From Verrucomicrobium sp. BvORR106 (lineage in GTDB: Bacteria > Verrucomicrobiota > Verrucomicrobiia > Verrucomicrobiales > Verrucomicrobiaceae): a DNA stretch of 46,195 bases. Below are positions 18,923-45,540 of this stretch, piece after piece (positions within the stretch are counted from its first letter, which is position 1; the number at the start of each line of letters is the position of its first letter). The stretch covers positions 1 through 46,195 of the forward strand of contig NZ_BATR01000088.1 in NCBI RefSeq assembly GCF_000739655.1, read 5' to 3'. The position numbers and the translations under genes are program-made. The notes under the pieces were generated by a model that saw only the letters and a list, made by a program, of their open reading frames with translations, ran no database searches and had not been told where the DNA came from.

Positions 18923-19049
18923 GGCGGAGAATCCTCGCGAACTCTCTCAGACTCAACTGCGCCTTTTTGCAGGGGACCTGTTAAAAAACGCAGGTGTGTC
19001 ATGAAGGTGATGCTGGCATTTAGCTGACCATTTGTGTTGGATGCAGAGC

Positions 19050-25597: not shown

Positions 25598-25608
25598 CAT
25601 CTTCCCCC

Positions 25609-29178: not shown

Positions 29179-31320
29179 ATGAGTGCCCGTTTCAACGATC
29201 AACTTAGTGCCCAAGGCCAAAACCAAACCCGAAGCACCAACGCCACCGCCAACCAGGCCCAGGCGCTGGAGAAGCTGCGCAACATCGGCATTGCCGCGCA
29301 CATCGATGCCGGCAAGACCACGCTGACTGAGCGCATCCTCCTTCACTCCGGCGCGATCCATTCGGCCGGCGAGGTGCATGATGGCAACACGACGACCGAC
29401 TTCTCCGACATCGAACGCGACAAGGGTATCACCATTTCCTCTGCGGCAGTGCCCGTTCACTGGACGCCGCTCGCGGAGGGTGGAGTGACCCCGCTTCATG
29501 CGGGTGAGCGTCATCGTCTCAATGTCATCGACACCCCGGGCCATGTGGACTTCACCGCGGAGGTGGAGCGCTCCCTGCGTGTGCTGGACGGCATGATCGC
29601 CGTCTTCTGCAGCGTGGGTGGCGTGCAACCCCAGAGTGAAACCGTGTGGCGACAGGCCGACCGCTACGGCGTGCCCCGTCTCGCGTTCATCAACAAGATG
29701 GACCGCGCCGGAGCCAGCTTCGAGCGCGTGGTGCAGGAGCTTCGCGAGAAGCTCGGAGCCAACGCCTGGCCCATCGTCCTGCCCGACGGCAGCGAGTCCG
29801 AACTTCGAGGTCAGCTCGATGTGATCCATCAACGTGCCCTTGTCTCGCAACCCGGATCGCCTCCATCTCAATCGGTGGAAGCGCTCACGGAAGCCCAACA
29901 AGAACGCGTGCGGATCGCTCGTGCGAATCTCGTCGAGGCTCTCGCGAGTCTGGATGATGAGGTGGCGGCCTTGTGGCTGGAAGGTCACGAGGTGCCCTCT
30001 CTCGTCCTGCAGCAGGCGGTGCGTCGGCAGACCCTTGCCGGTCGCTTCCTGCCCGTGCTCGGTGGCAGTGCCTATCGTCATGTGGGGGTCACTTCCTTGC
30101 TGAACGCAGTGGTGGACTATCTGCCCTCCCCGGTGGACATGGCCGCGTTGCGTCCGGTGCCTGCAGAGGTGCCGGTGGCGGCGCTGGCTTTCAAGGTCGT
30201 CCGTCATCCCCAGGCAGGCCGCCTCGTGTACGTTCGCGTGTACTCCGGCAGTCTGCACAAGGGCATGGAGCTCTACAATCCCCGTACCCGCAAGACAGAA
30301 CGTCTCGGCCGGTTGCTGCGTTTGTTCGCCGACCGTCGTGATGAACTGGATGCCGTGGGCGCGGGAGACATCTGTGCGGTGGTAGGCCTGCAGAGCGTGG
30401 GCACGGGGGACACCCTTTGCCTGCCCGGTGCCGGTCGCGAGATCCTTCTCGAGCCCCCGCAATTTCCTGAACCGGTGGTCAGCATGGCCATCGAGGCAGC
30501 CCATTCCAACGATCAAACCCGGCTGGCCACCGCGCTGGCCCGACTTAGCGATGAAGATCCTACTTTCCAGGTTCGCACTCATGAAGAAACCGGCCAATGT
30601 CTCATTGCCGGCATGGGTGAGCTGCACCTTGAGATCATCCGGGAGAAACTGTCCCGTGAGCACCACGTGGAAACCCGCGCGGGCGCTCCCGAGATTGCGT
30701 GTCGCGAGACGATCCAGCAGACCGCTGTGGCCGATCATGAGCTCAAAAAGCAAAATGGCGGCTCCGGCATGTATGCCCGCGTCAAACTGGCTGTCCAGCC
30801 GGTGGAGCGCGGTGCTGGGTTGTCGGTGGAAGACGCGGTCTCCGGCGGTACCATCCCGAGCAAGTTCCTCACGGCCGTCCATCGTGGTATCGCCGAGGCC
30901 GCCCGCAACGGCGTCCTCAACGGCAGCCCCGTGGTGGATGTGCAGGTGCGGATCCTGGACGGTGCCGCGCATGTGAAGGACTCCAACGAGCAGGCGTTCC
31001 GCCTCGCTGCCGGGGAGGCCTTCCGCGAAGCCCTGCGTGCCGCCCGGCCCGTGCTCCTCGAACCCGTCATGCGGGTGCAGGTGACCGTGCCGGAACAGCA
31101 TCAAGGCGACATCCTGGGTGACCTCAACCGCCGCCGTGCCCGCATCACGGGCATGGAAGCCGGGACCGATGCCCAGGCCCTGGCCATCGTCACTGCCGAG
31201 GTCCCCCTCGCAGAGATGTTCGGCTACGCCGGTGCCATCCGCAGCCTGTCAAAAGGCCGCGCCTCGTACTCCATGACCCCATCAGGATACGAACCCGCCC
31301 CGGAAGGTGCGGTGAGGTGA
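29179..31320 (+). CDS. fusA: elongation factor G paralogue (EF-G2-like)
   Basis: Ribosomal translocase or recycling GTPase, 713 aa from ATG 29179, close to normal EF-G length. G-domain motifs: G1 AAHIDAGKTT, switch I TTDFSDIERDKGITISSAAV, G3 DTPGHVDFT, G4 NKMDRAG. Domain II has RLVYVRVYSGSLHKG, domain III GMGELHLEII, domain IV GGSGMYARVKL and AAHVKDSNEQAF, and domain V VPLAEMFGYAGAIRSLSKGRASYSM. Canonical EF-G has MDWMEQEQERGITI; the TDF version here is like recycling-type mitochondrial EF-G2. It may therefore be a second EF-G rather than the main translocase, but this is inference. No Shine-Dalgarno is visible. Confidence 0.93.
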   Translation: MSARFNDQLSAQGQNQTRSTNATANQAQALEKLRNIGIAAHIDAGKTTLTERILLHSGAIHSAGEVHDGNTTTDFSDIERDKGITISSAAVPVHWTPLAEGGVTPLHAGERHRLNVIDTPGHVDFTAEVERSLRVLDGMIAVFCSVGGVQPQSETVWRQADRYGVPRLAFINKMDRAGASFERVVQELREKLGANAWPIVLPDGSESELRGQLDVIHQRALVSQPGSPPSQSVEALTEAQQERVRIARANLVEALASLDDEVAALWLEGHEVPSLVLQQAVRRQTLAGRFLPVLGGSAYRHVGVTSLLNAVVDYLPSPVDMAALRPVPAEVPVAALAFKVVRHPQAGRLVYVRVYSGSLHKGMELYNPRTRKTERLGRLLRLFADRRDELDAVGAGDICAVVGLQSVGTGDTLCLPGAGREILLEPPQFPEPVVSMAIEAAHSNDQTRLATALARLSDEDPTFQVRTHEETGQCLIAGMGELHLEIIREKLSREHHVETRAGAPEIACRETIQQTAVADHELKKQNGGSGMYARVKLAVQPVERGAGLSVEDAVSGGTIPSKFLTAVHRGIAEAARNGVLNGSPVVDVQVRILDGAAHVKDSNEQAFRLAAGEAFREALRAARPVLLEPVMRVQVTVPEQHQGDILGDLNRRRARITGMEAGTDAQALAIVTAEVPLAEMFGYAGAIRSLSKGRASYSMTPSGYEPAPEGAVR

Positions 31321-31428: not shown

Positions 31429-31836
31429 GTAGCGCAGATTGGCAATCTGCTGTGCCGCCGATTGGCAATCGTCCCGGTTCGCCGAAGCAAAAGCGCTTAT
31501 TCTCACACGAAGGCACAAAGGCACGAAGGACTGAATTGCTCGGATGCTCCTAAAGGAGGCGGGGGGTCCCAGCCCCGCTCAGTCACCGCACCCCTGCGCA
31601 TGCAGAGTCCCTTCCATCCGCACGCGGTTCGAAACTGTTCGTAGTTCAAACTGCAGTTTGCTCATGGCGCACCACCCCTGATCGACTGAGGCAATCTGAA
31701 GTTCGAACTGCAAACAGCCCCCTCCGCACCCTGTCCCGGAGGGACACCGGACTGTAGCCGGTGGTGCCAACCACCGGATATCGAACGCAGAAGCATTTGC
31801 GTCCCGGAGGGACGCCGGACCCCGGCATCGAACACG
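31429..31836. repeat. cluster of three dispersed repeat types between EF-G gene and convergent secreted-protein gene
   Basis: 31429-31550 carries the composite repeat tagcgcagattggcaatctg, then cgccgattggcaatcg and the tcacacgaaggcacaaagg core, copied at 40700-40822 and in parts at 6091-6380 and 35266-35330. 31635-31717 is an 83-bp near-palindrome of the gttcgtagttcaaact family. 31728-31822 contains two gtcccggagggac palindromes around an imperfect hairpin ccggtggtgccaaccaccgg; an inverted relative lies at 40580-40675. No gene is supported. Confidence 0.7.
31635..31717. repeat. 83-bp palindromic repeat, copy 1
   Basis: Starts ctgttcgtagttcaaactgc and ends gttcgaactgcaaacag, forming a long imperfect hairpin. 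Sister copies of the same length are at 38122-38204 and 43877-43958, all in gaps. Confidence 0.8.
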
Positions 31837-33042
31837 TCACTGGGACTTCTCCCACCAGCTCTGGACCGCATGGCGGACGCGATCATATTCACCGGGCGGC
31901 AGTTCCTCAAGATGATCCGGATGATGAAATCGAAAGTTCTGGCCAGCAATCTTTGAGAGGATGATTGCGGCACAGTCCCCCACAGTAAGCATGCGATGGG
32001 AAAACCAGGAGGTGCGGCTGAAGTTGACGGAACGGGTCGGTCGTTTGTCTGCGAGCGCCTCGATGAGCATGGGAACCGCAGGTCTGCCAATCTTTACGAG
32101 ACGATCCGCAGGTGAATCGTTCGGCTTGAGACTTGGCCAATTTTTCCCGATGAAGATGTCACAGGTACCCGGTTGGACGATCTGGTAGCCATTCTGATTC
32201 CTCAACCGGAAGATGTATTCCTGAACCTGGTCTTCTACTGACTTTGTTGCGAGGACATCGTCTTTCACGAAGTCATGGGTTGCATCCTCTGCTATCATTT
32301 CTTTCAAGAGGGTCGCAAGTTTGGCCGCTCTCGGGGCGTGAGGGCTGTTGGGGAACTGGCTTGCCCGCTGAAAGGCGGCGAGTACTTCCTGTCTTGATGG
32401 CAGCGCTGTTCTGCTCGGAACGTATTCGTCAATTCCTCCAGCCAGAAGGAATGCCTGCCACATCGCCAACTCCACAAACTCACGCTCCAGATACTCTCGC
32501 ATGCTTTTGGCTGGCTGGGCGCGGTTGTCACGGATGAGGCCGGCCGCCGCATAGAGGCTCTGAGCCATCACGGCATCGCCTCGACGCCAACAAGCGTGGG
32601 CAAGATAAAAGGCTTCAGACTTCGGAGTTAACTCCGTCCCAAAACGAATTTTAGGCGGCGATTGGGGCGCTGAGGCCAGACTTGAAAGGTAGGAGCGGCA
32701 GAATTGGTCGAAGGGGCACGCGACGAAATTCAGCTCGTCATAGCGAGGTGAAGTGGCCGTTTCCCTCCTTGGCCTCTCTACGGGGCACAGGTAGGCGTCC
32801 AGGATCGTGAGGGTTTCGTCTCTCTGTTGCAGGACAAATGTCAGTCTCGAAGGGGTGGTAACTGCGCCTTCCGCATTGGCTCGGCGGATCTCCGCCCATA
32901 CCGCATTTTTGAGGTCAGGAAATCCCAGGGTGTCAAACCACTCGAAGGACGTTCTGGCCTCTGATGAAAGTGGTGCCGGAGCAGCCATCGCGCAGATGCT
33001 TGCGCCCAGCAGGGACAGCAGAAAGACAAATGGGGATTTCAT
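31837..33042 (-). CDS. secreted HEAT-like paralogue family protein, short form (401 aa)
   Basis: Unrecognised family. It begins with a signal peptide MKSPFVFLLSLLGASICAMA and the family signature LSSEARTSFEWFDTLGFPDLKNAVWAEI. Later conserved parts are FYLAHACWRRGDAVMAQSLY (a TPR-like helix pair), MIAEDATHDFVKDDVLATKSVEDQVQEYIFRLRNQNGYQ, and a HEAT-like helix pair PADRLVKIGRPAVPMLIEAL followed by LTVGDCAAIIL. It stops at WWEKSQ, exactly where the longer paralogues continue into a second region. It corresponds to the N-terminal module alone. Probably periplasmic or exported. First of five minus-strand genes of this cluster by position. Confidence 0.85.
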   Translation of the reverse strand: MKSPFVFLLSLLGASICAMAAPAPLSSEARTSFEWFDTLGFPDLKNAVWAEIRRANAEGAVTTPSRLTFVLQQRDETLTILDAYLCPVERPRRETATSPRYDELNFVACPFDQFCRSYLSSLASAPQSPPKIRFGTELTPKSEAFYLAHACWRRGDAVMAQSLYAAAGLIRDNRAQPAKSMREYLEREFVELAMWQAFLLAGGIDEYVPSRTALPSRQEVLAAFQRASQFPNSPHAPRAAKLATLLKEMIAEDATHDFVKDDVLATKSVEDQVQEYIFRLRNQNGYQIVQPGTCDIFIGKNWPSLKPNDSPADRLVKIGRPAVPMLIEALADKRPTRSVNFSRTSWFSHRMLTVGDCAAIILSKIAGQNFRFHHPDHLEELPPGEYDRVRHAVQSWWEKSQ

Positions 33043-33147
33043 TTTTTCATGAAAGGTAACCAGGAAAATTGATGCTACGCAATCGCACCGTGGAGATCAG
33101 AGGCAGAGTATGGCGGCAACCGAGGTGATCGGTTCCCCCAGTCCCGT

Positions 33148-35145
33148 TCATCTCTTCCCCGTCCGCCTCTCAGCCCACTTCTTCAACCCCGCCGCCTTCT
33201 CCTCATCCCACTGCGTTGCCCCGGCCTTGGGCGTAAATGGGAAAACCTCCGGCTCGATCTTGTGCAGGGCCGAGAGGGCCACATCGCAGACGCGGGGTGA
33301 TTTTGGCCATCCGGTAGAAACCATGCCGTTGATCGGCGATGGGTCATTCAAGGCGGTGATCAAAAGCTGCAACGCCGCCTCCCTGCTGCCATCATCCCGA
33401 TGCACAAGAGAAGGTTCACCAGAACCAAACGCTTTATGATTCTCTGCCGCCAGCATCTTGGGCAGAGCGTCCACCACAGCAATACGCGTGCGAGCCGGCA
33501 GATCATCCCATCGCCCCTGCAACGCACGCAGCGCTCGGGAATCTCCGCAATCGGCAAGGAAGCTCGCGTAGGAACTCATCTCGGGATGCGAACGCGCACC
33601 GGCGTGAGACCCAGGTAGTTTCTCAAACTCCACGAGCGCCGTGGGCAGGGCCTCGGGATGCTGCCGGTCCCAGAGTTTCTGAATGGCCAGGAGCCTCGCC
33701 TCGGGATTGGGCGGTGTGTGCAGCATGGCTAGCAGTGTCGCATCCAATGAGGTGCTGTTCACGGCGCGAAACTCGCTCACCATGTCGTCAAGAATGCTTC
33801 GATCACGGGCGTTGCGGAGCCCGGCAATCAAGGCGGGTTCCAGCGCCTTCGGGTACTTGGCTTCCAGCACCCGCGCCAAGCCGAAAGGTGGGACGGTGCC
33901 GGACGAGAGCGCTTCCACCAGCGTTTGTTCCTCGCCTTTCGCCTGGACCTCCTGCCACCAGGCGTCGAGCAGCTTGTGGTCAATTTTGGCAGGGCTCTCT
34001 TCAAAGGTGCCCCACACAAATGGGCGAAAACTCCTCCCAGCAATTCGTTCCAGGATGAGCGTCGCGCAATCGCCGATCGTGAGTGTATGTTTGGTGAGGA
34101 TGAGCTCGCGGTTCGAGTAACTTGCGCGTGTGAAGCGCGTGTCACTCAGTGCCGCGATGAGTTGTGGCACGGCCGGGACACCTGTCGCAGCAAGCCGGTT
34201 CGCCGGTGATTCGTCCCTGCTTGAAAGAGAATCAAATATGTCCGGGGCAAACGGATAGGCGGATTGATACGCCCTCTGATCCCGCAACCGGAACACCAAC
34301 TCGCGCACCTGTTCCTCCATGGGCAGCTTGGCCATTTCCTCCTCAGATATCACGGGATGGCTCTTGTCCTCGGCGATCATCTGTTCCAGGAACTTTGCGG
34401 TTCTTTCTGCCTGAGGCGCTTCGTGGCAGTAAGGAAAGCGGCGGACTACTTCCATGAACGCGGCAAGGACTTCCGTCCTCGTGGGCAGGACGCGATTCTC
34501 TGGCCAGGGCTTTCCATTGCTGGTGAAAAGTCGGGCTGCCTGCCACATCGCGGCGCGCCCCATCTCCTGCTCCAGCAGATCTTGAAACTTCAGTCCTTCC
34601 GGCGGAGCCTTCCCGCCCTGACGTGTCGGTAGGTGAGATGCCTGGTCATAGAGCCCCTGGGCCAACTCCGTGTGCCCCCGCTGCCACGCCGCGTACGCCA
34701 TGAAGAAGATCTGGGATCGATGCCCCAGCTTGGAGTCCTTGATGCTCCACATCGCCGGCGTGAGAGCAAACTTTTTGAGGAGGTCGAGATACTGCCGGGC
34801 GGCCCTTTCAAATTCACGGGGCTCGAAAGTGACCCGGCCTATCGGATTTGCCGGATGGAGCTGCGCCGTCATTTCTCGCAGAATCAGGTCAGCGGTCAGT
34901 ACGTGAAATTGTTCCCCTTCTTGGCGGGTCACGAAACCCTGCACGGTACGATATTCGACCGGGCGGTTGCCTGTCTTCGATCCTTCACCCACCCACACCT
35001 CTGCCCATTTCGCCTCCTTGAGCTCCGGATAACCCAACGAGCTGAACCACGCAAAATCCGCCCTGGCCTCCGGAGAGAGAGGGGCCGCCGCACGCGCGGC
35101 AAGGGCCAGCGCGAACAAGAACGAGGCGATGAGGAGGGGTTTCAT
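33148..35145 (-). CDS. secreted HEAT-like paralogue family protein, medium form (665 aa)
   Basis: Signal peptide MKPLLIASFLFALALAARA, then the family N-module (LSPEARADFAWFSSLGYPELKEAKWAEVW), the cargo-like middle with FFMAYAAWQRGHTELAQGLY, and the HEAT-like unit GVPAVPQLIAALSDTRFTRAS. Beyond residue about 400 it continues WWQEVQAKGEEQTLVEALSS and further helical repeats (LLAIQKLWDRQHPEALPTAL) to ALHKIEPEVFPFTPKAGA, where it ends. It lacks the C-terminal domain of the 843- and 829-aa relatives. ATG at 35145; the upstream box GTATTCTCCA is shared with two other family genes. Function unknown. Confidence 0.87.
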   Translation of the reverse strand: MKPLLIASFLFALALAARAAAPLSPEARADFAWFSSLGYPELKEAKWAEVWVGEGSKTGNRPVEYRTVQGFVTRQEGEQFHVLTADLILREMTAQLHPANPIGRVTFEPREFERAARQYLDLLKKFALTPAMWSIKDSKLGHRSQIFFMAYAAWQRGHTELAQGLYDQASHLPTRQGGKAPPEGLKFQDLLEQEMGRAAMWQAARLFTSNGKPWPENRVLPTRTEVLAAFMEVVRRFPYCHEAPQAERTAKFLEQMIAEDKSHPVISEEEMAKLPMEEQVRELVFRLRDQRAYQSAYPFAPDIFDSLSSRDESPANRLAATGVPAVPQLIAALSDTRFTRASYSNRELILTKHTLTIGDCATLILERIAGRSFRPFVWGTFEESPAKIDHKLLDAWWQEVQAKGEEQTLVEALSSGTVPPFGLARVLEAKYPKALEPALIAGLRNARDRSILDDMVSEFRAVNSTSLDATLLAMLHTPPNPEARLLAIQKLWDRQHPEALPTALVEFEKLPGSHAGARSHPEMSSYASFLADCGDSRALRALQGRWDDLPARTRIAVVDALPKMLAAENHKAFGSGEPSLVHRDDGSREAALQLLITALNDPSPINGMVSTGWPKSPRVCDVALSALHKIEPEVFPFTPKAGATQWDEEKAAGLKKWAERRTGKR

Positions 35146-35265
35146 AGCAGCGTGGAGAATACCCCGTGCGCGGCGGAGGAGGCAAGGGGAGAGAATGGGG
35201 CAGTTCCCGATCCGGCATCCCTTCGGGACGAGACCCAAACGCCGCCAGCCTCGCATCAACGTGGC

Positions 35266-35330
35266 GGCGCAGATTCTTAATTTGCTGTGCCGCGATTGGC
35301 AATCGTCTCTATTTGCCCCGGAGATGGAAA
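35266..35330. repeat. partial copy of the gattggcaatcg dispersed repeat
   Basis: ggcggcgcagattcttaatt and tgctgtgccgcgattggcaatcg match the first half of the composite repeat at 31429-31550. The right end overlaps the last codons of the following minus-strand gene (stop at 35309), so the repeat may have supplied its C-terminus. Confidence 0.6.
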
Positions 35331-37840
35331 CGGATCAGGAAATCTCTTTCAGCGGGCAGCGTGGGTACAACTTGCAGTTCCTTTTCCAGCCGGGTCCACT
35401 TCGCGGGTTCGATGGCATCGGCAGGCATGCAGCTATCCCGTGAGAGCCCTCGCACCTGGTCGCCCGACTGCAGGGATGCTCCAAAGGTCACCTGGTCCGT
35501 CTGGGAGAGATCCCCGGGGGCGAGCACCACGTGCAGAACCACCCCGGTGAGGTCGCGGTTCCGGATGACCTCCACCACCATGCCGCCGATGCCCTGGGTA
35601 TCATGAGTCAACAGATGCCTGGAAAGGGCAGTCAGGGTTTCAGGGGCGAATGAGGTTCCCTTGAGATTCTGCAGGTGCTGTGTGAAGCGGGCGGTTGCCC
35701 TTTCCTGGGCCCCGCCCGCCGAGGCTTGAGCGCCCAGTTCCACATTCACCTGGGAGATTTGCAGGGACTTCGCCGCGGGCAACACAGGCAGTCTTGCATC
35801 AGGCCCGGGGAGCACAGGCTGGCCCTGCTGGGTGCGCCAGCGGTTGATGGAGGCAAGTCGCTCTTGTTCGCGTTGTTTCCTATCTGCGCTGGCGGTGAAG
35901 GGGTGAGTTCCGGGATCAATTTGATGGAGTGCCCAGGATGCCAGATCACAAATGCGCGGATCGATGAATGCAAAGTCCCGGTAGGATCCTGAGAGGCCTT
36001 CGTCCACCGCTCTGTCGCTCAGGGCTAGAATCAGCAGTTCGGTCGCCTTCGCGCTGGCCTCTGGCGATGGTCGCACTGGTTTGGCGACGAACGAGGAATA
36101 CCTGGGGTTTGCGGGAAGAAGATGGGCCATTTCGCGAACAAGATGTGATTTCTCCCGTGCATTCCGGAGGTTCCAGTTGCTGGAGAGAAGCTCAAAGGCG
36201 CGCTGCTCTCCGGTGGCAATGAGGAGTGAACCGAGTGTGCAGAGACGATTGGATTTTTCCGAATAGGGCGGATAGCCCTCCACGGCCTGCCACATTTCCA
36301 TCATGGCGCGCAGCGCCTCCGGGTGCTTCCTCTCCCAGAGCACCCGCGCTGCGACGATGCGCAGGTCCATTTCTTCTCCGCTCCCCAGGAACTTGAGCAG
36401 CAGTTGCGTGGCTTCTGCGGAGGGATTCGTCTTCAAGTGTTCGGCATAGCTCTCGGTGATCCCCCTCTGTTCCGCCACCTTGGCCCCGGCCAGGACGGCG
36501 GCATCCACTGCGTCGGGGTACTTCTCCTTGAGCTTCCGGACCAGTTCCCCCGGCCAGTTCTTTCCTGAAGCGATTTCATCCGCCAGCGCTTGTTTTTCGC
36601 CTTTCTTTTGGATGACCTGCCACCAGTCCTCGGCTTCCTTGCGGACTGTGGCAATGTCCTCCGGTGTGGAGGATCGTTCTGGACTGGATCGGCGCAGGAT
36701 GATGGAGTTTCCAGAGATGCGGCGCAAGATGATCGCGGCACAGTCTGCATTGGTCAGGATGTAGTGGGAGAATCGAAAATCCCGACCGTACTGCACGGAA
36801 CGCGTCAGGCGCTGGTCGGCGAGGGCGGCGATGAGTTGCGGTACGGCTTCATGCCCGAGTTTCACCAGTCGGTGAGCAGTTGTTTCATGAGTGCGTTCCC
36901 CGCGGGTGGCGAAGATGTCGCAACTTCCCGGCTGGCCCATCTGAAATCCGTTTAGGTCCCGCAAGCGGAAGAGGTATTCCTCCACCTGCTTTTCAACAGG
37001 GAGCTTTGAGAGTTCGACATCGTTCACGCTGACATGGGTGGCGTCTTCGGCGATCATACCCTGCAGGACAGTCGCCAGTTCCGTTGCCCGTCCGGCGTGG
37101 CGACTGTTGGGAAACTTTGCCGCAATCTCCTGGAACGAGGAGAGCAAGGTCGTCCGCGGAACCAGCGGAACTTCTTCTCTGACAATTTGCTCAATGCCTC
37201 CCGCCTGCAGGATGGTGCGCCACATGGCCAGCTCGCCCAACTCCCGCTCCAGGTCATGGCGCAGCCCTGGCAGATCGGTCTTCTCATGTCCCTGCCGGTC
37301 CGGAAGGGAGTCTGCCGCCTCAAACAGCGCCTGCGCTCTGGCGTAGTCGCCCTTTCGCCAGCAGGCGTAGGCAAGCAGGGCCGTCTGGGCACGGCGGGAG
37401 GGCTGTGGGAAAAGGTAGGCGGTGTGGAAGGGCGGATTTGCCCCCTGCTGGATGCTGGTCAGCAGCTCATCCATGTCCTTCTCCAGAGAGCGTGGAGTGA
37501 ATCCGACCCGGGCATACGAACGATCCGGCGGGGATGACGTCTGGAGGCGGGCCGTCGTTTGCGGGAGATGCAATGCGACAAAGGAAGTGTCATCATGCTC
37601 TGTGACAAAGAGCCGGTTGGTGACTGGGGTCTGGCCCGTGTACCCATCGTCCGTATAAGATCCCGTCCAGACCTCCGCCCAAATCGCCTCTTTGGGGTCG
37701 GGGTACTTGAGGGACTGATACCACTCGAAGCACTCCTTTGCCTTCGGCGAGAGGGCTGGGGTTTGGGCTTCCAGCGGGGAGAGGGCCAGGCCAGCCAGGA
37801 GAGGCAAAATCAACGACAGGTAAAGAACAGGGGATTTCAT
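35309..37840 (-). CDS. secreted HEAT-like paralogue family protein, long form (843 aa)
   Basis: Signal peptide MKSPVLYLSLILPLLAGLALS, family signature LSPKAKECFEWYQSLKYPDPKEAIWAEVW, TPR-like ALLAYACWRKGDYARAQALF, and MIAEDATHVSVNDVELSKLPVEKQVEEYLFRL. HEAT-like helices follow (LGHEAVPQLIAALADQRLTRS; VAARVLWERKHPEALRAMME). After the hinge ALHQIDPGTHPFTASA it has an extra C-terminal domain of about 170 residues (KSLQISQVNVELGAQ, MVVEVIRNRDLTGVVLHVVL, LEKELQVVPTLPAERDFLIRFHL) shared only with the 829-aa paralogue. ATG at 37840 with GTATTCTCCA seven bases upstream. Exported; role unknown. Confidence 0.87.
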   Translation of the reverse strand: MKSPVLYLSLILPLLAGLALSPLEAQTPALSPKAKECFEWYQSLKYPDPKEAIWAEVWTGSYTDDGYTGQTPVTNRLFVTEHDDTSFVALHLPQTTARLQTSSPPDRSYARVGFTPRSLEKDMDELLTSIQQGANPPFHTAYLFPQPSRRAQTALLAYACWRKGDYARAQALFEAADSLPDRQGHEKTDLPGLRHDLERELGELAMWRTILQAGGIEQIVREEVPLVPRTTLLSSFQEIAAKFPNSRHAGRATELATVLQGMIAEDATHVSVNDVELSKLPVEKQVEEYLFRLRDLNGFQMGQPGSCDIFATRGERTHETTAHRLVKLGHEAVPQLIAALADQRLTRSVQYGRDFRFSHYILTNADCAAIILRRISGNSIILRRSSPERSSTPEDIATVRKEAEDWWQVIQKKGEKQALADEIASGKNWPGELVRKLKEKYPDAVDAAVLAGAKVAEQRGITESYAEHLKTNPSAEATQLLLKFLGSGEEMDLRIVAARVLWERKHPEALRAMMEMWQAVEGYPPYSEKSNRLCTLGSLLIATGEQRAFELLSSNWNLRNAREKSHLVREMAHLLPANPRYSSFVAKPVRPSPEASAKATELLILALSDRAVDEGLSGSYRDFAFIDPRICDLASWALHQIDPGTHPFTASADRKQREQERLASINRWRTQQGQPVLPGPDARLPVLPAAKSLQISQVNVELGAQASAGGAQERATARFTQHLQNLKGTSFAPETLTALSRHLLTHDTQGIGGMVVEVIRNRDLTGVVLHVVLAPGDLSQTDQVTFGASLQSGDQVRGLSRDSCMPADAIEPAKWTRLEKELQVVPTLPAERDFLIRFHLRGK

Positions 37841-38223
37841 ACCTGTTTGGAGAATACTCCGGGTCCTGTCGGCGATGCAAGTGCGTTGTGTCGGGGTGGG
37901 GAGGTCCCGCGATCCCGTTTTCCCTTTCGGGAAGGGATGCATGGTATGTATTGACCTCATTCAGAGACTGCAGGATCAAGCTGTCTGCCGATAGTGCTCT
38001 CTACCTAGAACCCGGAGGGTTCGGTGCAATGGTGGACCCGCATTCCGCAGCTCAAAATCCCCTTGCGTTTGTTGTGGTGTGGTGAATCTAGGAAACAAAC
38101 AGATTGCGAAGCTTTTGGAAGCTGTTCGTAGTTCAAACTTTAGTTTGCCTCAGTCGATCAGGAGTGGCGCGTCCTGAGCAAACTAAAGTTTGAACTACAA
38201 ACAGTTTCCCGCTGCCTGCCCCC
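37841..38223. repeat. intergenic region with two dispersed repeats
   Basis: 38005-38072 (ctagaacccggagggttc to ccttgcgtttg) matches parts of the larger element at 40918-41235. 38122-38204 is the best copy of the 83-bp palindrome: ctgttcgtagttcaaacttt at the left pairs with aaagtttgaactacaaacag at the right. No gene is supported in this 383-bp gap. Confidence 0.75.
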
Positions 38224-40512
38224 TCACTTCGGCCGCGACTCGATCCACTTCGTCCACGCGTCTCCATCGGTGCCAAAAGACTCGCCCGTCAGGTCGATCA
38301 GCTCCGCAGCGATGAGGCGATGCAATCCGTCGTTGTTCATGTAGTCGTCCTCCACGCGGCCGAAATCCATGCGCAACATGCCGGCGAGAGCCCGCAGGGC
38401 CTCATCATTGCCGACGGAGGCAATGGCCGCGAAGCTGTGCTTGAGCGCGGAGCATGTCGCCAGATCATCTTCTTGGGGCAGCGCCCCGTCCTTCACGGTG
38501 GCCAGGAAATTGAGCAGCGGTTTGATGATCCGCGGATCCTTCGTGTCCCGGAGCGCGAAGAGGATGCTGGACTTATCCTCCCAATCGGGGTCGTCCAGCA
38601 GGCGGAGCAGCTTCGGAGCTGGCTCAGGGCCACGCCGGATGAGCTGCAGCTGCAACTTCCGCTCAGCTTCTGGCAAAAGATCGGGCAGCAGCTTCTTGAG
38701 GCCTTCCACCTGGGTCGCCGTCAGATCATCTTCCCTCCAGCCAATGCTAGACAGAGCTTCAATGCCGGGCTTCCCCAGATCCAAAATACTCTCGGTGTCA
38801 CCTTCTTGAAGGAGTCGGGAAACCAACGGTATCAAGATGTAGTATCTCTCCCGTCTGAGGAGATTGGCCCAATCTTGAAGCACCTCGGGGGCGAGAGGGG
38901 CTGGGTCAGCGCACAGAGCACCGATCACTTCGAATTGCGGCTTCGGTCCATCGAATTCCGAATCCTCTGCTTTCGAGGGGGCCATCGAAAACTTTACCAG
39001 GGCCTGGCGAACCCGTGCCGAGGGCATGATGGGCAGCCACTGCAGCGCGGGGGAATAGAACAGCACCGCCGATGCAGGAGTGAATGCGCGATCGTGAGCG
39101 GGATCGGTAGATAGCGCCCAGCCCGAGACCAGCTTCTTCTTATCCTGACTCAACAGGTTCAGGAAAATATCCTCCGCCCAGGCCACCTCGGGTTTCGCGG
39201 GTTTGTCGGCCACGGGCAGGAACGGGAAGGTGAAGAGACAGTGCACTGCATCAGGGAAAAGGGGCGAGGCGGGATCGGCAACGGCCTGTCTGAGCACTTC
39301 TCGTCCTCGTTCGTCGTTGCGGGCGGCCAGCATTCCCGCATACACCAGCTTGAGCGTGGGATCGATCCCCTCTGCCTCCATCTGCACAGCCAGGAAGTCT
39401 GACCTCTTTGCGGATTCATCCCGCTGCAGAAACTCGATCACCTGAGCGTTGTGAGAACACATCAGCAGGGCCCTGGTCTCGCCTCCCAGGTAGCCGTTGA
39501 AGACCGCCTCTCTGGCCTCCAGCACGGGCAGTCCGTCCCGCATGGGCACAGGCCTGCCGGAGATCCAGTGGTAGTTCCAGCCTTTTGGTCTGGTATCGAG
39601 AGGCTGCACCTTCGCGGCCCGCACCGTGTATTGAAGCACCAAGTCGCGATCCACCTTGGAGGTGATTTGGTCCAGCGCTGGCCGCAACTCGCGGACGAGC
39701 CGACCTGTGACCCGCGCACTCCCGCCATGGTGGTCCGAGTTGAACGTGAGCACGCGGCCCCCTGCCGAGGTGAGGCAGATCCGTTCTTCATCTCCTTTGC
39801 GCTCAAACCACCAGACGCCGTTCATGCTTCGCAGGCGCCCGGTGAGCACCACCTCCTGGCCGATCCTTTCAGCGAGCGAGGCGGCATGCCACTGGGCACC
39901 TTGCCACTGCCATCCGGTGCCAGCGGGGTGCAACCGTCCCCGGACGACGACCTCCCTGTTGAGCAAGTGGGGTGGCCATTCGGTGAGCCCGTCGATCGCT
40001 GCCTGTTCCTCCTGGCACCTGAGCCGGCCCCCGGCCACCGCGGTGCCGGTCATCTCGCAGTCCCGGTCCGCAAAGTCCTTGAACCGATGCGGGGCCGCGG
40101 GAATGCGTTGAAACTCCGTGACGTTGAAGCCGATGTTCAGTGATGGCCCCGCCTTCAGGCATTGCCCCCAGCGCCCCTTGACCGAAAGCCAGTCCCCCTT
40201 CTTGAGTTTCTTGCTCTCGCTTTCAGTAGGGCTGCCAATGAGGTGAAAACAAAGCTCATCGGTATTGCCCCTGCCATTGATACGTGCGGCAGTGATCGCC
40301 ACCTCAGCGGAACTTCTGTAGGGGTTGGTTTTGACGATGAACCCTTCGATCACCATTTCGTCCTTGGTTGAAAATGCTGCGCCATCGATGCGCAGCGTGT
40401 CAAAGGTGTTGAACGTCTCCGCAGGGCTGCGGGTGGGCACGCCCAGCCCGCATGACATCGCCACGATGGCGACTACCCAGCAGCGCACGGCAGGACGAAT
40501 TGCAGCGATCAT
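38224..40512 (-). CDS. secreted HEAT-repeat protein with OB-like N-terminal repeats (762 aa)
   Basis: N-terminal signal region MIAAIRPAVRCWVVAIVAMS ending near SPAET. Residues about 30-330 show recurrent short beta-type units with glycine turns (SVKGRWGQCLKAGPS, VVVRGRLHPAG, VVLTGRLRSMNGVWW, ARVTGRLVREL), suggestive of OB-like or similar small barrels. The second half is helical, with HEAT-like repeats (LLRLLDDPDWEDKSSILFALRD, IIKPLLNFLATVKDG, EALRALAGMLRMDFG), ending DAWTKWIESRPK. It sits among the secreted paralogue family on the same strand but does not carry their N-terminal signature. Function unknown. Confidence 0.8.
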   Translation of the reverse strand: MIAAIRPAVRCWVVAIVAMSCGLGVPTRSPAETFNTFDTLRIDGAAFSTKDEMVIEGFIVKTNPYRSSAEVAITAARINGRGNTDELCFHLIGSPTESESKKLKKGDWLSVKGRWGQCLKAGPSLNIGFNVTEFQRIPAAPHRFKDFADRDCEMTGTAVAGGRLRCQEEQAAIDGLTEWPPHLLNREVVVRGRLHPAGTGWQWQGAQWHAASLAERIGQEVVLTGRLRSMNGVWWFERKGDEERICLTSAGGRVLTFNSDHHGGSARVTGRLVRELRPALDQITSKVDRDLVLQYTVRAAKVQPLDTRPKGWNYHWISGRPVPMRDGLPVLEAREAVFNGYLGGETRALLMCSHNAQVIEFLQRDESAKRSDFLAVQMEAEGIDPTLKLVYAGMLAARNDERGREVLRQAVADPASPLFPDAVHCLFTFPFLPVADKPAKPEVAWAEDIFLNLLSQDKKKLVSGWALSTDPAHDRAFTPASAVLFYSPALQWLPIMPSARVRQALVKFSMAPSKAEDSEFDGPKPQFEVIGALCADPAPLAPEVLQDWANLLRRERYYILIPLVSRLLQEGDTESILDLGKPGIEALSSIGWREDDLTATQVEGLKKLLPDLLPEAERKLQLQLIRRGPEPAPKLLRLLDDPDWEDKSSILFALRDTKDPRIIKPLLNFLATVKDGALPQEDDLATCSALKHSFAAIASVGNDEALRALAGMLRMDFGRVEDDYMNNDGLHRLIAAELIDLTGESFGTDGDAWTKWIESRPK

Positions 40513-41289
40513 GGCATGGAATCATGCGGAACGGGCCGGATTCTGGCAAGCGGCAAATGGGGGAGGGCGCGGCAGCGATCCGGCGTCCCTCCGGGACGCG
40601 AGAGGGGAGGGCGTGGTAGTCCGGTGGTTGGCACCACCGGCTACTGTCCAACGTCCCTCCGGGACGAGAGCCAAGTGCCAGCAAACGCACCACAGCATGG
40701 TAGCGCAGATTGTTATTCTGCTGTGCCGCCGATTGGCAATCGGCCCTGCCCGCCGAAGCGGGAAACGTTTATCCTCACATGAAGGTACAAAGGCACAAAG
40801 GATTGAGCTGCTCGGATGCTCTTTCAGGAAGCAGTGTGCTGTTGGAAGCTGTAGGGAGTACAGGCTTCATTCAGGAATTGAAGAACCAATCCGGCTGTCA
40901 AAGATGAAGAGTTCTTTCTAGAACCCGGAGGGTTCACTATGAGTAGCCATGGGTGGAACGAGCGTAGCGAGTACAACCCATGGAAATCGAACGGGCAATT
41001 TCTACCGCGGAGCGGTAGGCCTGATGGTCCAAACTCGGATGGAGGTGAATTCGAGGGAAGCAACCAGCAGTGGGCGACGCGATGGGCTTACCACTCCGTG
41101 GTAGCAGGTCTGGACGTCAATCCACGGGTAGCCCTCGCTACACTCGGTCGACCCGTGGCTATGCATGGTGAACCCTCCGGGTTCGATGGAATGGTAAACC
41201 CGCATTCCGCAGCTCGAAATCCCTTGCGTTTGCTTGCAGGCCCTATGGTCTTGAATGGACGCCGGAAAACGGTGGTACCCGCACGCAAT
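40513..41289. repeat. 777-bp gap built from three repeat elements
   Basis: 40580-40675 holds two gtccctccgggac palindromes flanking an imperfect hairpin ccggtggttggcaccaccgg, the inverse of 31728-31822. 40700-40822 is the second full copy of the gattggcaatcg / gaaggtacaaaggcac composite. 40918-41235 is a hairpin-rich element bounded by 17-bp inverted repeats. Open frames across it merely read repeat DNA. No gene is supported. Confidence 0.75.
40921..41184. repeat. hairpin-rich element with 17-bp terminal inverted repeats
   Basis: gaacccggagggttcac (40921-40937) is the exact inverse of gtgaaccctccgggttc (41168-41184). Inside are stems ccatgggt/acccatgg around gagcgtagcgag, accgcggagcggt, and ccacgggt/acccgtgg around ctcgctacactcg. 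The overall shape is a multi-arm folded structure. Flanking sequence at 41181-41235 recurs at 38020-38072. Confidence 0.65.
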
Positions 41290-43779
41290 CTACAAGTCGG
41301 ACTCCATCGGCCCCAAGCAGATTCGCAAAACAAAATCGGCTTCTGGTGCAGCGGTGACGACCTTCTGAAAGTGCTCTTCAAATCGGGTCCAATACTCCCG
41401 GTCCACGGCGTTCCCCAATGCGACGGAGTTGTCGTCCATCAACGTCCCCCTGCCATCAACCTCAATGCTAAACACCCGCTGAAGCTCTGTGCCGATCAGA
41501 GGCATGCTGGGTCGCAACTGCAGGTTCAGCGCCACGCCGCTCAGATCACGACTTCGAACGGCTTCAACGGACAAGTTCGATGTCTTAACCGCTGATGAAC
41601 CGGCGTAGTCGAGCGCGATTTCGACCAGCAGGTCGGGTGTGAAGTTCCTGCCCTTCCACGACAGGACGTGCTTTTGCAGGCTCTTCAGATCCGGATGATC
41701 GCCGAAGTGACAGTTCACCTGGGAAATCTGCATCGCCTTTTCAGTGGGTAGTGGCGGAGAAGCTTCGGGTGTGGCGGGCTCGGGCTGTCCCTGGGATCTT
41801 CGCCAGTGGTTCTTCGCCTGAAGGATCGCCCTGTCACGATGGCTTCGATCACTGCGATTGGCATAGGCATACTCTTCCGGAGCTATTTCATGCAATGCCA
41901 TGAGCGCGAAGTCGCAGACTCGGGGATTTGTGTGGGTGTATTGCATGGTGCTCCCGCGGTATCCGGCGCTTCCGTCGGTGTCATCAAGCGCATCCACCAG
42001 GAATCTGATCACTGTTTGGTGCACCTCTCGAGGGGCTTGTTTGATGATCATGCCGTCGTCTGCCTTGCCGCTCAGAGACGCCCGGTACTTGTCTCTCAGC
42101 ACATCGATGATGCGAAGCCTGCGATTCGCAGGACGCTGGTCCCACTGGTCCAGAATCAGCGCCAGTGCCTGCTGATCCTTGGTCGCGGCGAGGATGCGGA
42201 GCAGGGCATCAAACTCGTCGTTGTGCGATGGTTTCAGTCGCAAGGGCAGAGCCTGCCACAGCTTGATCGCGGTTGGCAGGGCGGCGGGATGCCCGCGGTT
42301 CCACAGGGTGCGGATGGCATCGACTCGGAGGTAGCGGTTGGTATCTTGCTCCATCTGGCGCAGCAAAAAGCGTGTGGCGTCGTCAGAGGAGATCTGCCCG
42401 ACCTCGCCGAGGTAGTCGCTGGCACGGCCGGCGGCCTCTGCCTTCAATGCGCCCACGAGGATGGCGCGGTCAACCGCGAGCGGGTTAATTTTGGTCAGTC
42501 GTGCGATCTGTGCTCCGGATGGCCGCGTGCCGGAGGAGATTGCCTCAACGAGCATCGCTTCTTCGCCCTTTTTTTGAAACTCCACCCACCACGACAGGGC
42601 GTTCCTCCGCACCATCTCGATCCGGGCGGGCTCTTCGATAAACAGCATCCTTTTATCAGCGTCAGTAAAGTCGGTTAGACTGAGGTTCCTGATAACGGAT
42701 TCGCACAGGTCACCGACGGTCATGATCGTGTAGGTGAAAGGGTGGCGTTGCCCGAAGTAGAGGGTCCGGGTCGGAGTGGGATCCCCCAATGACTCGATGA
42801 GCAGCGGCACCGCGTGGATGCCCAGTGCAATCAGGGATTTCTCTGGCGGGAGCCCATCGTCCGGGCCGGTAGGGGGAAGATTCTCCGGCTGATAGGAATC
42901 CTTGTTTTGAAATCGCAGCCGGAAGATGTGCTCCCGCACCTGGTCATCGATGGGAAGCTTGCGCATCTCAGCAGTGGTGGGCCAGGGGCGCCCGGCCTCT
43001 TCAGCATTCATCCTTTCCAGACGGGTGCACAGACTGCGGGCTTCATCCACATGGTCGGATGCCGGGTAGTCCCTTGCCATCTGCTTCAGGGCCGAGATGA
43101 GCTCGTTGCGGGGTTGCAACGGATTGTTCCCAGAGAGGACCTCATCATCGCCGCCAGCCAAATCCAAGATGACCCGGAACAGGGCCGCTTTCCCGAGTTC
43201 CCGTTCAAGATCCCTTCGCATGCTGGAAGCGTTGGGTGAGTCGGAGGTGGCGTCTGGACTGGGGAGCCTGGCCGCCTCATCAAACAGCGCTTGAGCCATT
43301 TCCGTCTGCCCCCGCTTGAAGGCCACGTGAGCCAGAAAGAAAACCCGTGCCTTCTTTTCAAGCATCCAGCGACGACGCATGGAGATGGCCACTCTGTCCC
43401 AATAAGGCTCATGGCGCTCCGTCAGATAGCGACGGGCGTATTCGTGAAACGGCCGCACTTGATAGATGCATTCTTTGGTTGCCGTCTGCTTGGATGCCAG
43501 GGTTGCAGTGAGCAGGTCAGGAAACAGGACCTTGCATTGAACGCCGTCGTCCTGCAGCACAAAACCCAGCACCGTATTGGGCCTCATGTCCTCACCGGCG
43601 TACTGAATCATGCCTCCCGTCCGAATCTCCGCCCATCTGGCATGAGTGGTGTCTGGATACCCAAGCGTCTCAAACCATTCGAAGCACTCCTTCGCCTCCC
43701 TGGACACGGGTGGCGAAACGGCCTGTGATGCACCGGGCAGAGCGGTCAGGATGAACAACGCGATGAGCAGGGGTTTCAT
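41290..43779 (-). CDS. secreted HEAT-like paralogue family protein, long form (829 aa)
   Basis: Signal peptide MKPLLIALFILTALPGASQA, family signature VSREAKECFEWFETLGYPDTTHARWAEI, TPR-like FFLAHVAFKRGQTEMAQALF, LPIDDQVREHIFRLRFQNKDSYQ, and HEAT-like LGIHAVPLLIESLGDPTPTRT. The helical middle includes VDAIRTLWNRGHPAALPTAI. After ALHEIAPEEYAYANRSDRS it has the same C-terminal domain as the 843-aa paralogue (KAMQISQVNCHFGDHPDL, LSVEAVRSRDLSGVALNLQL, FEEHFQKVVTAAPEADFVLRI). The upstream sequence GTATTCTCCACGCTGC is nearly identical to that of the 665-aa gene. Exported; role unknown. Confidence 0.87.
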   Translation of the reverse strand: MKPLLIALFILTALPGASQAVSPPVSREAKECFEWFETLGYPDTTHARWAEIRTGGMIQYAGEDMRPNTVLGFVLQDDGVQCKVLFPDLLTATLASKQTATKECIYQVRPFHEYARRYLTERHEPYWDRVAISMRRRWMLEKKARVFFLAHVAFKRGQTEMAQALFDEAARLPSPDATSDSPNASSMRRDLERELGKAALFRVILDLAGGDDEVLSGNNPLQPRNELISALKQMARDYPASDHVDEARSLCTRLERMNAEEAGRPWPTTAEMRKLPIDDQVREHIFRLRFQNKDSYQPENLPPTGPDDGLPPEKSLIALGIHAVPLLIESLGDPTPTRTLYFGQRHPFTYTIMTVGDLCESVIRNLSLTDFTDADKRMLFIEEPARIEMVRRNALSWWVEFQKKGEEAMLVEAISSGTRPSGAQIARLTKINPLAVDRAILVGALKAEAAGRASDYLGEVGQISSDDATRFLLRQMEQDTNRYLRVDAIRTLWNRGHPAALPTAIKLWQALPLRLKPSHNDEFDALLRILAATKDQQALALILDQWDQRPANRRLRIIDVLRDKYRASLSGKADDGMIIKQAPREVHQTVIRFLVDALDDTDGSAGYRGSTMQYTHTNPRVCDFALMALHEIAPEEYAYANRSDRSHRDRAILQAKNHWRRSQGQPEPATPEASPPLPTEKAMQISQVNCHFGDHPDLKSLQKHVLSWKGRNFTPDLLVEIALDYAGSSAVKTSNLSVEAVRSRDLSGVALNLQLRPSMPLIGTELQRVFSIEVDGRGTLMDDNSVALGNAVDREYWTRFEEHFQKVVTAAPEADFVLRICLGPMESDL

Positions 43780-44022
43780 GGCAGCGTGGAGAATACCTCA
43801 GGCGCGACCCTGGTGGCAAGGTCAGAGGTGCGACCCCGTCCGGCGAGGGCAATAAGGAAACAACCCGATCATGAAGCGGTTCGTAGTTCAAACTTCAGTT
43901 TGCCTCAGTCGATTTGGGGTGTGCGTCCTGAGCAAATTAAAGTTTGCACTACAAACAGCTTCCAAACTCCGGCCCAGAGCATCTAACCCATAACTCCTAA
44001 CCTCTAACGCCTCCCCCCCAAC
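43780..44022. repeat. intergenic region with palindromic repeat copy 3 (43877-43958)
   Basis: The 82-bp copy starts cggttcgtagttcaaacttc and ends tttgcactacaaacag; it is the third member of the 83-bp palindrome family. The rest holds the upstream region of the 829-aa gene. No gene is seen. Confidence 0.75.
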
Positions 44023-44100: not shown

Positions 44101-45540
44101 TCACCCAATCACCTCAGGCCACTCGGTGTGGAAGAACTCGCCTTCGGGCTTGTCCAGGCGCTCATAGGTGTGAGCACCGAAGAAGTCGCGCTGGGCCTGC
44201 AGCAGGTTCGCCGGCAGGCGCTCGGCGCGGTAGCTGTCGTAGTAGCCCAGGGAGGCGGAGAAGGCCGGAGCGGGGATGCCGTTCAGGGTGGCGAGGGCCA
44301 CCACTTCACGCCAGTTCTGCTGGGTCTGGCTGAGCACGCCCTTGAAGAAGGGGTCGAGCATCAGGTTCACCAGGCTGGAGTTGGTGCGGTAGGCGTCCGT
44401 GATGCGGTTGAGGAAGCGCGCACGGATGATGCAACCGCCACGCCAGATGGCGGCGATGCGGCCGAGGTCGAGACCCCAGCTCTTCTTCTCGCCCATGGTC
44501 TTGATGAGGTCCAGACCCTGTGCGTAGGAGATGATCTTGGAGGCGTAGAGGGCGTCGTGCACCTTCTTCACCAGCTCAGCCTTGTCGGTCGTGATGTTGG
44601 CGGTCGGGCCGGTCAGCTCCTTGCTGGCTGCCACACGCTGCTTCTTCTGGCTGGAGAGGATGCGGGCCTCCACAGCGGCGTTGATGGTGCTGATCACCAC
44701 CGCGTTCTCCGCGGCGTTGAGGAGCGTCCACTGGCCGGTGCCTTTCTGGCCGGCCTTGTCCACGATGAGCTCGACGACGGACTTGCCGGTCTCGGCGTCC
44801 ACCTGCTCGAGGGCCTTGCCGGTGATCTGGATGAGGTAGCTCTGGAGGTCGCCTTCGTTCCACTCGTTGAAGATCGCAGCGATCTCAGCGGTCGTGAAGC
44901 CAGCGTGCTTGAAGATGTTGTAGGCTTCGCAGATGAGCTGCATGTCGCCGTACTCGATGCCGTTGTGGATCATCTTCACATAGTGGCCGGCGCCGCCGGG
45001 GCCGATGTGGATGACGCAGGGCTCACCGTCCACCTTGGCGGAGATGCTTTCAAAGATGGGCTTCATCACCTCCCAGGTGCTGGCAGGGCCGCCGGGCATG
45101 ATGGAGGGGCCTTTGCGGGCGCCTTCTTCACCGCCGGAAACGCCAGCGCCGATGAAGCGGAGGCCTTTTTCGCTGAGGTAGGCGTCACGGCGCTCGGTGG
45201 TCTGGTAGAAGCTGTTGCCGCCGTCGATGACGATGTCGCCCTTGTCCAGGAGGGGGATGAGTTGCTCGATCACCGCGTCCACGGCGTCACGGTCGCTGTC
45301 CTTCACTGCGGTGGACTTCACCATGATCTGGATCTTCCGGGGAGTGGCCAGGCTCTGCACGAACTCTTCCAGAGTCTTCGCGCCCACCAGTTTCTTACCC
45401 GGATGCTTCGCGATGAACTCGTCCGTCGTGGCGGTCGTGCGGTTGAAAACGGAAACCTGGAAGCCGCGGCTTTCCACGTTAAGGACAAGGTTCTGGCCCA
45501 TCACGGCCAAGCCGATGAGTCCGAAGTCGCTTTTTGACAT
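44101..45540 (-). CDS. gnd: 6-phosphogluconate dehydrogenase (decarboxylating)
   Basis: Oxidises 6-phosphogluconate to ribulose-5-phosphate and CO2 with NADP+, in the oxidative pentose phosphate pathway. 479 aa, the long dimeric form. It starts MSKSDFGLIGLAVMGQNLVL (Rossmann fold, NADP binding with FNRTTA). It has the substrate motif IVIDGGNSFYQTTERR, GVSGGEEGARKGPSIMPGG and HYVKMIHNGIEYGDMQLI with the catalytic Lys, and the C-terminal IAAIWRGGCIIRARFL with QRDFFGAHTYERLD. ATG at 45540 fits exactly. Followed by its own terminator; probably a single-gene unit, divergent from moaE. Confidence 0.97.
   Translation of the reverse strand: MSKSDFGLIGLAVMGQNLVLNVESRGFQVSVFNRTTATTDEFIAKHPGKKLVGAKTLEEFVQSLATPRKIQIMVKSTAVKDSDRDAVDAVIEQLIPLLDKGDIVIDGGNSFYQTTERRDAYLSEKGLRFIGAGVSGGEEGARKGPSIMPGGPASTWEVMKPIFESISAKVDGEPCVIHIGPGGAGHYVKMIHNGIEYGDMQLICEAYNIFKHAGFTTAEIAAIFNEWNEGDLQSYLIQITGKALEQVDAETGKSVVELIVDKAGQKGTGQWTLLNAAENAVVISTINAAVEARILSSQKKQRVAASKELTGPTANITTDKAELVKKVHDALYASKIISYAQGLDLIKTMGEKKSWGLDLGRIAAIWRGGCIIRARFLNRITDAYRTNSSLVNLMLDPFFKGVLSQTQQNWREVVALATLNGIPAPAFSASLGYYDSYRAERLPANLLQAQRDFFGAHTYERLDKPEGEFFHTEWPEVIG

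Follow-up and report, generated by a model that had tools for sequence, protein, structure and literature searches.

A predicted exported repeat-protein family of Verrucomicrobiales whose duplicates have very probably lost C-terminal modules

The gene array

Contig NZ_BATR01000088.1 of Verrucomicrobium sp. BvORR106 was analysed over its full length of 46,195 nucleotides (hereafter the window; complete contig G000:C122 of an 8.69 Mb draft assembly in 209 contigs), and its minus strand carries four genes for related proteins that are predicted to be exported and to contain helical repeats. An original prediction, made from the sequence of this DNA, had described four tandem same-strand genes forming one paralogue family. 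Alignment confirms that the four are homologous over their shared length (30–40% identity; 32–35% to the 829-amino-acid (aa) protein and 30–39% to the 843-aa protein), and strand and lengths are as had been stated; the tandem arrangement, however, is interrupted by an unrelated 762-aa gene between the 829- and 843-aa genes, and the order along the minus strand is 829–762–843–665–401.

31837..33042, minus strand: 401-aa member, with N-terminal region, TPR-like region and core, without the HEAT-like solenoid and C-terminal domain
33148..35145, minus strand: 665-aa member, without the C-terminal domain only
35309..37840, minus strand: 843-aa member, full-length
41290..43779, minus strand: 829-aa member, full-length, its core the least conserved of the four (26/39 consensus columns)

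The array lies between the gene for elongation factor G (EF-G; 29038–31320, plus strand) and a 6-phosphogluconate dehydrogenase-like gene, gnd (44101–45630, minus strand; the label comes from the sequence, not from a family scan). The 665 stop and the next start are just 105 bp apart. Longer open frames, of 703 and 883 aa, enclose the 665 and 843 genes; in favour of the internal starts are signal-peptide-like N-termini and a promoter-like element, described below, that ends 10 nt 5′ of exactly those ATGs. A genome-wide search for further members, which the original prediction had proposed as a check and in which every first-look candidate was scored (19 and 29), found one more, a full-length 829-aa gene on contig C78, bringing this genome to five.

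Domain plan of the family

The 843-aa protein was modelled by AlphaFold2 from an eight-member alignment (mean predicted local distance difference test score, pLDDT, 79.6; predicted template modelling score, pTM, 0.62). The model runs from an N-terminal hydrophobic helix through a small strand-rich part, helical pairs, the core and a helical solenoid to an alpha/beta domain, with helices at residues 393–413 and 415–425 and a final solenoid helix at 654–671. Fold searches with the full model were dominated by the solenoid; the C-terminal domain was also modelled alone, from 12 members, and is predicted to follow the order strand-helix-helix-strand-strand-strand-strand-helix-strand (pLDDT 91.2).

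36602..37021, minus strand: core module of the 843-aa protein (residues about 274–413), the most conserved region
31840–32262, 33937–34344 and 42568–42975, minus strand: core equivalents in the other three genes, from the alignment
35819..36598, minus strand: HEAT/ARM-like solenoid of the 843-aa protein (residues 415–674), from the AlphaFold2 model (VIA-align Z up to 11.1)
35312..35827, minus strand: C-terminal alpha/beta domain of the 843-aa protein (residues 672–843), AlphaFold2 mean pLDDT 91.2
41293–41793, minus strand: equivalent C-terminal domain of the 829-aa protein

Mean pairwise identity in the core is 0.375, against 0.21–0.27 in other regions. Its consensus, LRDQNGxQxxQPGxC...SPAxxLxxIGxPAVPxLIEALxDxRxTRSV...FSH..LTVGDCAxxIL...WW, is kept at 36 of 39 columns in the 401- and 665-aa proteins, 34 in the 843-aa protein and 26 in the 829-aa protein, and no Pfam model reaches its curated score over this region (best unrelated matches E 0.0004–0.03). 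The solenoid aligns with HEAT/ARM structures at a root-mean-square deviation of 5.2 over 226 residues.

Three shared features named in the original prediction stand in weakened form. The signature FxWFxxLGYPD-x-K-x-A-x-WAE is present, but looser than proposed (FEWFDTLGFPDLKNAVWAE, FAWFSSLGYPELKEAKWAE, FEWYQSLKYPDPKEAIWAE, FEWFETLGYPDTTHARWAE). For the TPR-like pair, sequence support is weak (TPR_8, E 0.11, in one of the four proteins), and so is Pfam support for HEAT-like units, which are nevertheless backed by predicted helical pairs and by the structural alignment of residues 415–674; HEAT_2 (PF13646) matches three of the four window proteins at E 0.0006–0.02, with no match in the 401-aa form, and reaches E ≤ 0.05 in 12 of the 15 family members, with 3.4e-5 as its best value. 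The N-terminal stretch is the sole strongly hydrophobic segment in the four window proteins (19-residue mean 1.8–2.1; elsewhere ≤ 1.37), and no catalytic motif, membrane anchor or second hydrophobic stretch was recognised in them. Judged by hydropathy and inspection of the sequence, the N-termini would be signal peptides and the proteins would be exported.

The family and its domain combination are absent from the libraries scanned, the repeat types themselves being of known kinds. NCBIfam gave no match at E ≤ 0.01 for any of the 15 members, and PHROGs and PADLOC gave none at E ≤ 0.01 for six proteins; a link to phage or defence was rejected on that result. Literature searches (Verrucomicrobium spinosum with HEAT repeat; POTRA, Verrucomicrobia and TPR) returned nothing describing the family, and a fusion of a POTRA domain with HEAT repeats does not appear in the consulted portions of PMC12419801.

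Where the short members end

The short members stop at module borders, as the original prediction had held. The end of the 401-aa protein aligns to residue 411 of the 843-aa protein, a position two residues short of a helix end and four short of the solenoid start, and that of the 665-aa protein aligns to about residue 671, where the final solenoid helix stops, between the solenoid and the C-terminal domain. G024, a genome from another genus of the family, encodes a 670-aa protein that stops where the 665-aa protein does and lacks the same last domain. The original prediction had named in-frame extensions hidden by frameshifts as the finding that would overturn it, and none was found behind either stop: when C-terminal parts from 14 relatives were run by tblastn against the DNA at the 401 stop (543 bases, spanning the stop and continuing beyond it) and at the 665 stop (145 bases, spanning it), no credible remnant appeared, the best match (E 0.007) being an 8-aa piece of the 665 gene's own end and the next (E 0.011) reaching 25% identity. 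In a control on a 520-base stretch, the best other relative was detected at E 1.8e-27.

Direction and number of the probable losses

Fifteen family proteins were compared. The set leaves out the broken copies of the congeneric genomes G001 and G003, the protein of G146, which is cut by a contig end, and the partial matches of G131, G071 and G238; the sequence of G059 is, by eye, the same as that at locus L015. The C-terminal domain is present in 12 of the 15 and missing only in the 401-aa, 665-aa and G024 proteins, and the 12 full-length proteins span three families of the order and include distant ones (20–26% identity to the 843-aa protein). Loss thus fits better than gain, and of the modular loss or gain that had been proposed, the modular change holds and loss is the favoured direction. 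It is very probable that duplicates lost whole modules from their C-terminal ends, at domain borders; the full-length state is the commonest and likely ancestral.

The fewest changes required on the tree number three. The tree itself is poorly resolved (two of 12 inner branches starred, seven open) and long branches are in play. On it, the 401-aa protein pairs with the full-length 843-aa protein at moderate support (91/93), the 665-aa protein has no firm place (63/11), and the G024 protein groups with full-length G144 (100/100). A single clade of the 401-aa, 665-aa and G024 proteins is rejected by the approximately unbiased (AU) test (p 0.00025, with long branches in play), which together with the firm pairing of G024 and G144 supports at least two losses of the last domain. 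A clade of the four window genes is not rejected (p 0.223), and one of all five members of this genome is borderline (p 0.048). The "nested truncation series" originally proposed is therefore nested in length, and perhaps not in descent, because the 401-aa protein pairs with the 843-aa protein.

Relatives, decay and selection

In the following counts, which include the window's own genome, the family profile matches 5 of 57 relatives (with every first-look candidate scored), 17 of the 288 genomes searched in the order (three candidates scored per genome) and 8 of 387 genomes of the phylum (two scored per genome). A core profile matches 6 of the 387 (up to 10 candidates scored), and was itself built from the window and from sequences of five of those six genomes, the sixth being the window's own. 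Some of the hits counted are not members: those in G238 (order) and G540 (phylum) fall in the HEAT part only. A profile search of genome contigs gave two loci, one of them (L016) the copy in G001. A recognisable core also occurs in otherwise different proteins of the same order (G131, G071), the same class (G355) and the same phylum (G308, G331). In G308, a distant genome of the phylum, two neighbouring core-module genes (L067 and L071) lie about 2 kb apart.

Three congeneric genomes are at least 99% complete: that of the window has five intact genes, and the two others have one broken copy each, with no further member found by the family profile when all first-look candidates were scored. In a fourth, G002, which is 76% complete, there was no match. 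The G003 copy, on a one-contig genome and between EF-G and gnd, has a frame change and an internal gap, and is a chimera whose upstream region and start are of the 665 type and whose body is of the 401 type (401 residues 30–108, then 301–401); the 401 and 665 loci have therefore recombined. The G001 copy is of the 665 type, with residues 1–97 and 323–664 in different frames and an internal deletion. At the same place, G014 has one full-length gene and G004 has none. EF-G and gnd lie on one contig in G003, G014, G004 and G024, and on two (L035 and L036) in G001, a separation that reflects either a rearrangement or an assembly break. No common neighbour was noticed when neighbourhoods were compared by eye rather than systematically, and a shared operon partner was set aside.

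The ratio of non-synonymous to synonymous rates (dN/dS, Nei-Gojobori) between the 401-aa gene and the G003 copy is 0.10 over the last 100 codons (91% identity) and 0.26 over 48 N-terminal codons; between the 665-aa gene and the G001 copy it is 0.22 over 269 codons of the C-terminal part (68% identity) and 0.43 over 93 codons. EF-G and gnd give 0.06–0.10. These values argue that the short forms have been constrained for some of their history.

The promoter-like element

A promoter-like element precedes all four window genes at equal spacing, as found by pattern search:

43777..43819, minus strand: TTGCCA-N18-TATTCT-N10-ATG, before the 829-aa gene
37838..37880, minus strand: TTGCAT-N18-TATTCT-N10-ATG, before the 843-aa gene
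35143..35185, minus strand: TTGCCT-N18-TATTCT-N10-ATG, before the 665-aa gene
33040..33082, minus strand: TTGCGT-N18-TACCTT-N10-ATG, a weaker form before the 401-aa gene

The upstream regions of the 829-, 843- and 665-aa genes share GTATTCTCCA, seven nt 5′ of ATGAAA. Across the 8.69 Mb genome the combination GTATTCTCCA-N7-ATGAAA is matched exactly at three places, these genes, and once more with two mismatches; the reversed control of the pattern has no match in that genome. The pattern TTGCNN-N18-TAYYYT-N10-ATG matches six times, at the four window genes and the G003 and G001 orthologues, and at no other ATG of 5,535 in nine stretches (330,998 bases, counting both strands). A simple sigma-70 scan found the 829 site among 5 sites in all, where 3.2 were expected. 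Since synonymous sites among the window paralogues are near saturation, selection is taken to have preserved the element, or else exchange between copies, which does occur, as the G003 chimera indicates. With a −10 box 10 nt from the ATG, hardly any leader would remain; each gene may be transcribed by itself, with little or no leader.

Neighbouring genes and intergenic repeats

The 762-aa gene (38224–40512, minus strand) encodes a protein that looks exported and has a HEAT_2-like stretch (E 0.0005, below cut-off); the gene lacks the promoter-like element of the family. It was considered as a family relative and rejected, no relationship being detected (hhalign probability 0.3%); in the PDB its profile gave only weak matches, to alphaRep chains and a ribosomal protein. 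Among the 57 relatives searched, an orthologue (82% identity) was found in G001 only, and dN/dS of the gene is 0.25. The neighbour may serve the same process as the family, as the original prediction had suggested, but in one congeneric genome the 762-aa gene is intact and adjoins gnd, and no intact family member was found anywhere in that genome.

31729..31821, no strand assigned: dispersed repeat whose border lies 15–17 nt after the 401 stop, with 42 matches in this genome (40 of 65 candidates scored)

Insertion of this repeat was considered as the direct cause of the 401 stop and set aside, its border being close to the stop but behind it. A second copy lies at 40579–40665, and the copies have GTCCCTCCGGGAC ends. 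Another intergenic repeat family (31620–31718, 38114–38219 and 43873–43966), with an internal inverted repeat around GTAGTTCAAACT, has copies in the G003 stretch too, and a third repeat pair (31429–31560 and 40700–40832) is 81–88% alike and contains runs like GAAGGCACAAAGGCACGAAGG. Elsewhere in the window, 16921–19002 (minus strand) encodes an RNA ligase (PF09414) and, after it, HD and AAA_33 domains; the HD-AAA_33 part occupies two overlapping frames here (17346–18050 and 16921–17394) and one 372-aa frame in G014 (L033:5628–6746). Three consecutive genes with ClpB-type AAA_2 and D2-small domains (1107, 1081 and 770 aa) lie at 19032–27921 (plus strand).

Interpretation and alternatives

Our explanation as a whole, to which we give slightly less than an even chance, is that these genes belong to an exported repeat-protein family of Verrucomicrobiales that forms a local array, loses C-terminal modules and works as a scaffold. 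The full plan would comprise a signal peptide, a small beta-rich N-terminal domain, TPR-like helices, the core, a HEAT/ARM-like solenoid and a C-terminal alpha/beta domain, and duplicates in the array would have shed modules from the C-terminal end, the 401-aa form giving up solenoid and C-terminal domain and the 665-aa form the C-terminal domain. In the periplasm or at the outer membrane, the proteins may act as protein-binding scaffolds, in which the core and N-terminal part would form a binding head, while the solenoid and C-terminal domain would supply another surface for binding and a part for docking; the short forms would retain the head and give up docking. The reading of the function that assumes least, though a doubtful one, is an exported protein-binding scaffold whose binding head is conserved. 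More speculative, and on balance improbable, is a fuller version, that of an envelope scaffold family. Its POTRA-like C-terminal domain would attach the protein to a second protein of the envelope, and trimming of local duplicates at module borders would have left a graded set, from docked forms with a solenoid through undocked forms with a solenoid to the head by itself; all would be produced together from transcripts with next to no leader, under one type of promoter, and would share the core's ligand or compete for it.

A number of observations weigh against this explanation. No conserved partner gene that would back a scaffold role was noticed, by eye, in the neighbourhoods, and the broken copies in G001 and G003 suggest that the genes are dispensable. 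The N-termini of several relatives are weakly hydrophobic (19-residue mean down to 1.24). HEAT_2 does not reach its gathering score of 27.7 bits in the 665-, 843- or 829-aa protein (20.5, 15.5 and 18.6 bits), and the maximum Z of 11.1 for the solenoid is below the value of about 13 that the tool names for repeats. For the C-terminal domain, the maximum Z of 5.4 is below the 8 needed to go beyond a common arrangement, the best Foldseek match is to a kinesin (E 0.072) with none at E ≤ 0.001, and a Pfam scan of 12 such domains found no POTRA family at E ≤ 5, although the missing of TPR or POTRA families from match lists is not proof of absence. The wider promoter pattern was drawn up after inspecting these genes, and the element is lacking before the fifth member, on C78, and the G014 gene. 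Finally, a clade of the 401- and 665-aa proteins has a log-likelihood 5.45 lower than the best tree and is not rejected (AU p 0.121).

This last result also leaves some room for a truly stepwise descent, in which the C-terminal domain was lost first, giving the 665 type, and one copy then lost the solenoid, giving the 401 type. The two genes adjoin, and their loci have recombined, as the 665-type start and 401-type body of the G003 copy attest; the best tree, however, joins the 401-aa protein with the 843-aa protein and barely places the 665-aa protein, and G024 shows that the C-terminal domain has been lost elsewhere too. We regard such a descent as possible but unlikely. Far less probable is the reverse direction, in which the family would have begun with a short form and acquired the solenoid and C-terminal domain later. 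Core-bearing distant proteins outside the order (G331, G308 and G355) do lack a recognised C-terminal domain of this kind, but they are frames of 633–845 codons with other C-terminal parts, and full-length members are spread over three families of the order.

Whether the 401- and 665-aa genes are sound, functional genes can be questioned in two ways. They could be artefacts of frameshifts or misassembly, given that the contig stems from a 209-contig draft, but the absence of a coding remnant behind either stop, and the same or nearly the same ends in congeneric genomes, speak strongly the other way: the 401 C-terminus SWWEKSK* recurs in the G003 orthologue, from a one-contig genome, and the broken 665-type orthologue in G001 ends about 7 residues beyond the 665 end. 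An error of this kind is scarcely credible. Alternatively, gene death may be under way and the two short genes may be relics that no longer function, as the frameshifted and internally deleted sole copies of G003 and G001 would lead one to expect, and a dispersed repeat does begin 15–17 nt behind the 401 stop. Both genes are nonetheless intact throughout, with signal-peptide-like starts, the promoter spacing and 36 of 39 core columns, and their dN/dS relative to congeneric copies, 0.10 over 100 codons and 0.22 over 269 codons, indicates constraint, some of which may predate the death of the other copy. On this evidence we hold decay of the short genes to be distinctly unlikely.

If the explanation by module loss from exported scaffolds is true, nature has supplied in this array a small series of deletion variants of a single exported repeat protein, pre-cut at domain borders, beside which stand congeneric genomes with only a broken copy; the role of each module would then be directly testable. 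It would also show exported repeat proteins being trimmed at natural joints with the central part kept, that part being a conserved core module without a name that occurs patchily beyond the order too.

Comparison with known systems

HEAT/ARM folds are right-handed solenoids of paired helices. The solenoid resembles them in the helix pairs predicted at residues 415–674, and the structures listed in the comparison (alphaRep, importin-alpha, AP2 and PP2A scaffolds) are all of that kind; it differs in that the family proteins are predicted to be exported and fuse the solenoid to other domains, and in that Pfam scores in the window are below cut-off or absent. The TPR-like region is reminiscent of BamD/YfiO and other TPR proteins. 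The 843-aa protein weakly matches YfiO there (E 0.0035), and the N-terminal family profile matches BamD chains in the same region at E 0.46–0.71, but the YfiO match is below cut-off (17.6 bits against a Pfam gathering score of 25, in one of the four window proteins), and only a common repeat type can be claimed.

The closest parallel for the C-terminal domain is the POTRA domain of the Omp85 family (BamA, TamA and Toc75). Residues 23–104 of the C-terminal model follow the order strand-helix-helix-strand-strand, and the top 17 rows of the VIA-align comparison are Omp85-family chains, aligned over these first five elements at Z 5.4–4.2 (among them 5ayw, which we take to be such a chain); the next row is a designed protein at Z 4.1. 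The fold may thus be, on the strength of a model, that of a POTRA domain plus extra strands, a suggestion we make weakly, and since Foldseek gave nothing significant and Pfam no POTRA match, we speak of a POTRA-like order of elements and not of a POTRA domain. The family domain differs from POTRA in carrying extra strands and a helix behind the POTRA-like part, in standing at the C-terminal end and in the lack of a beta-barrel; in the Omp85/ShlB layout the POTRA domains are followed by a C-terminal beta-barrel, whereas here the domain is the last of the protein.

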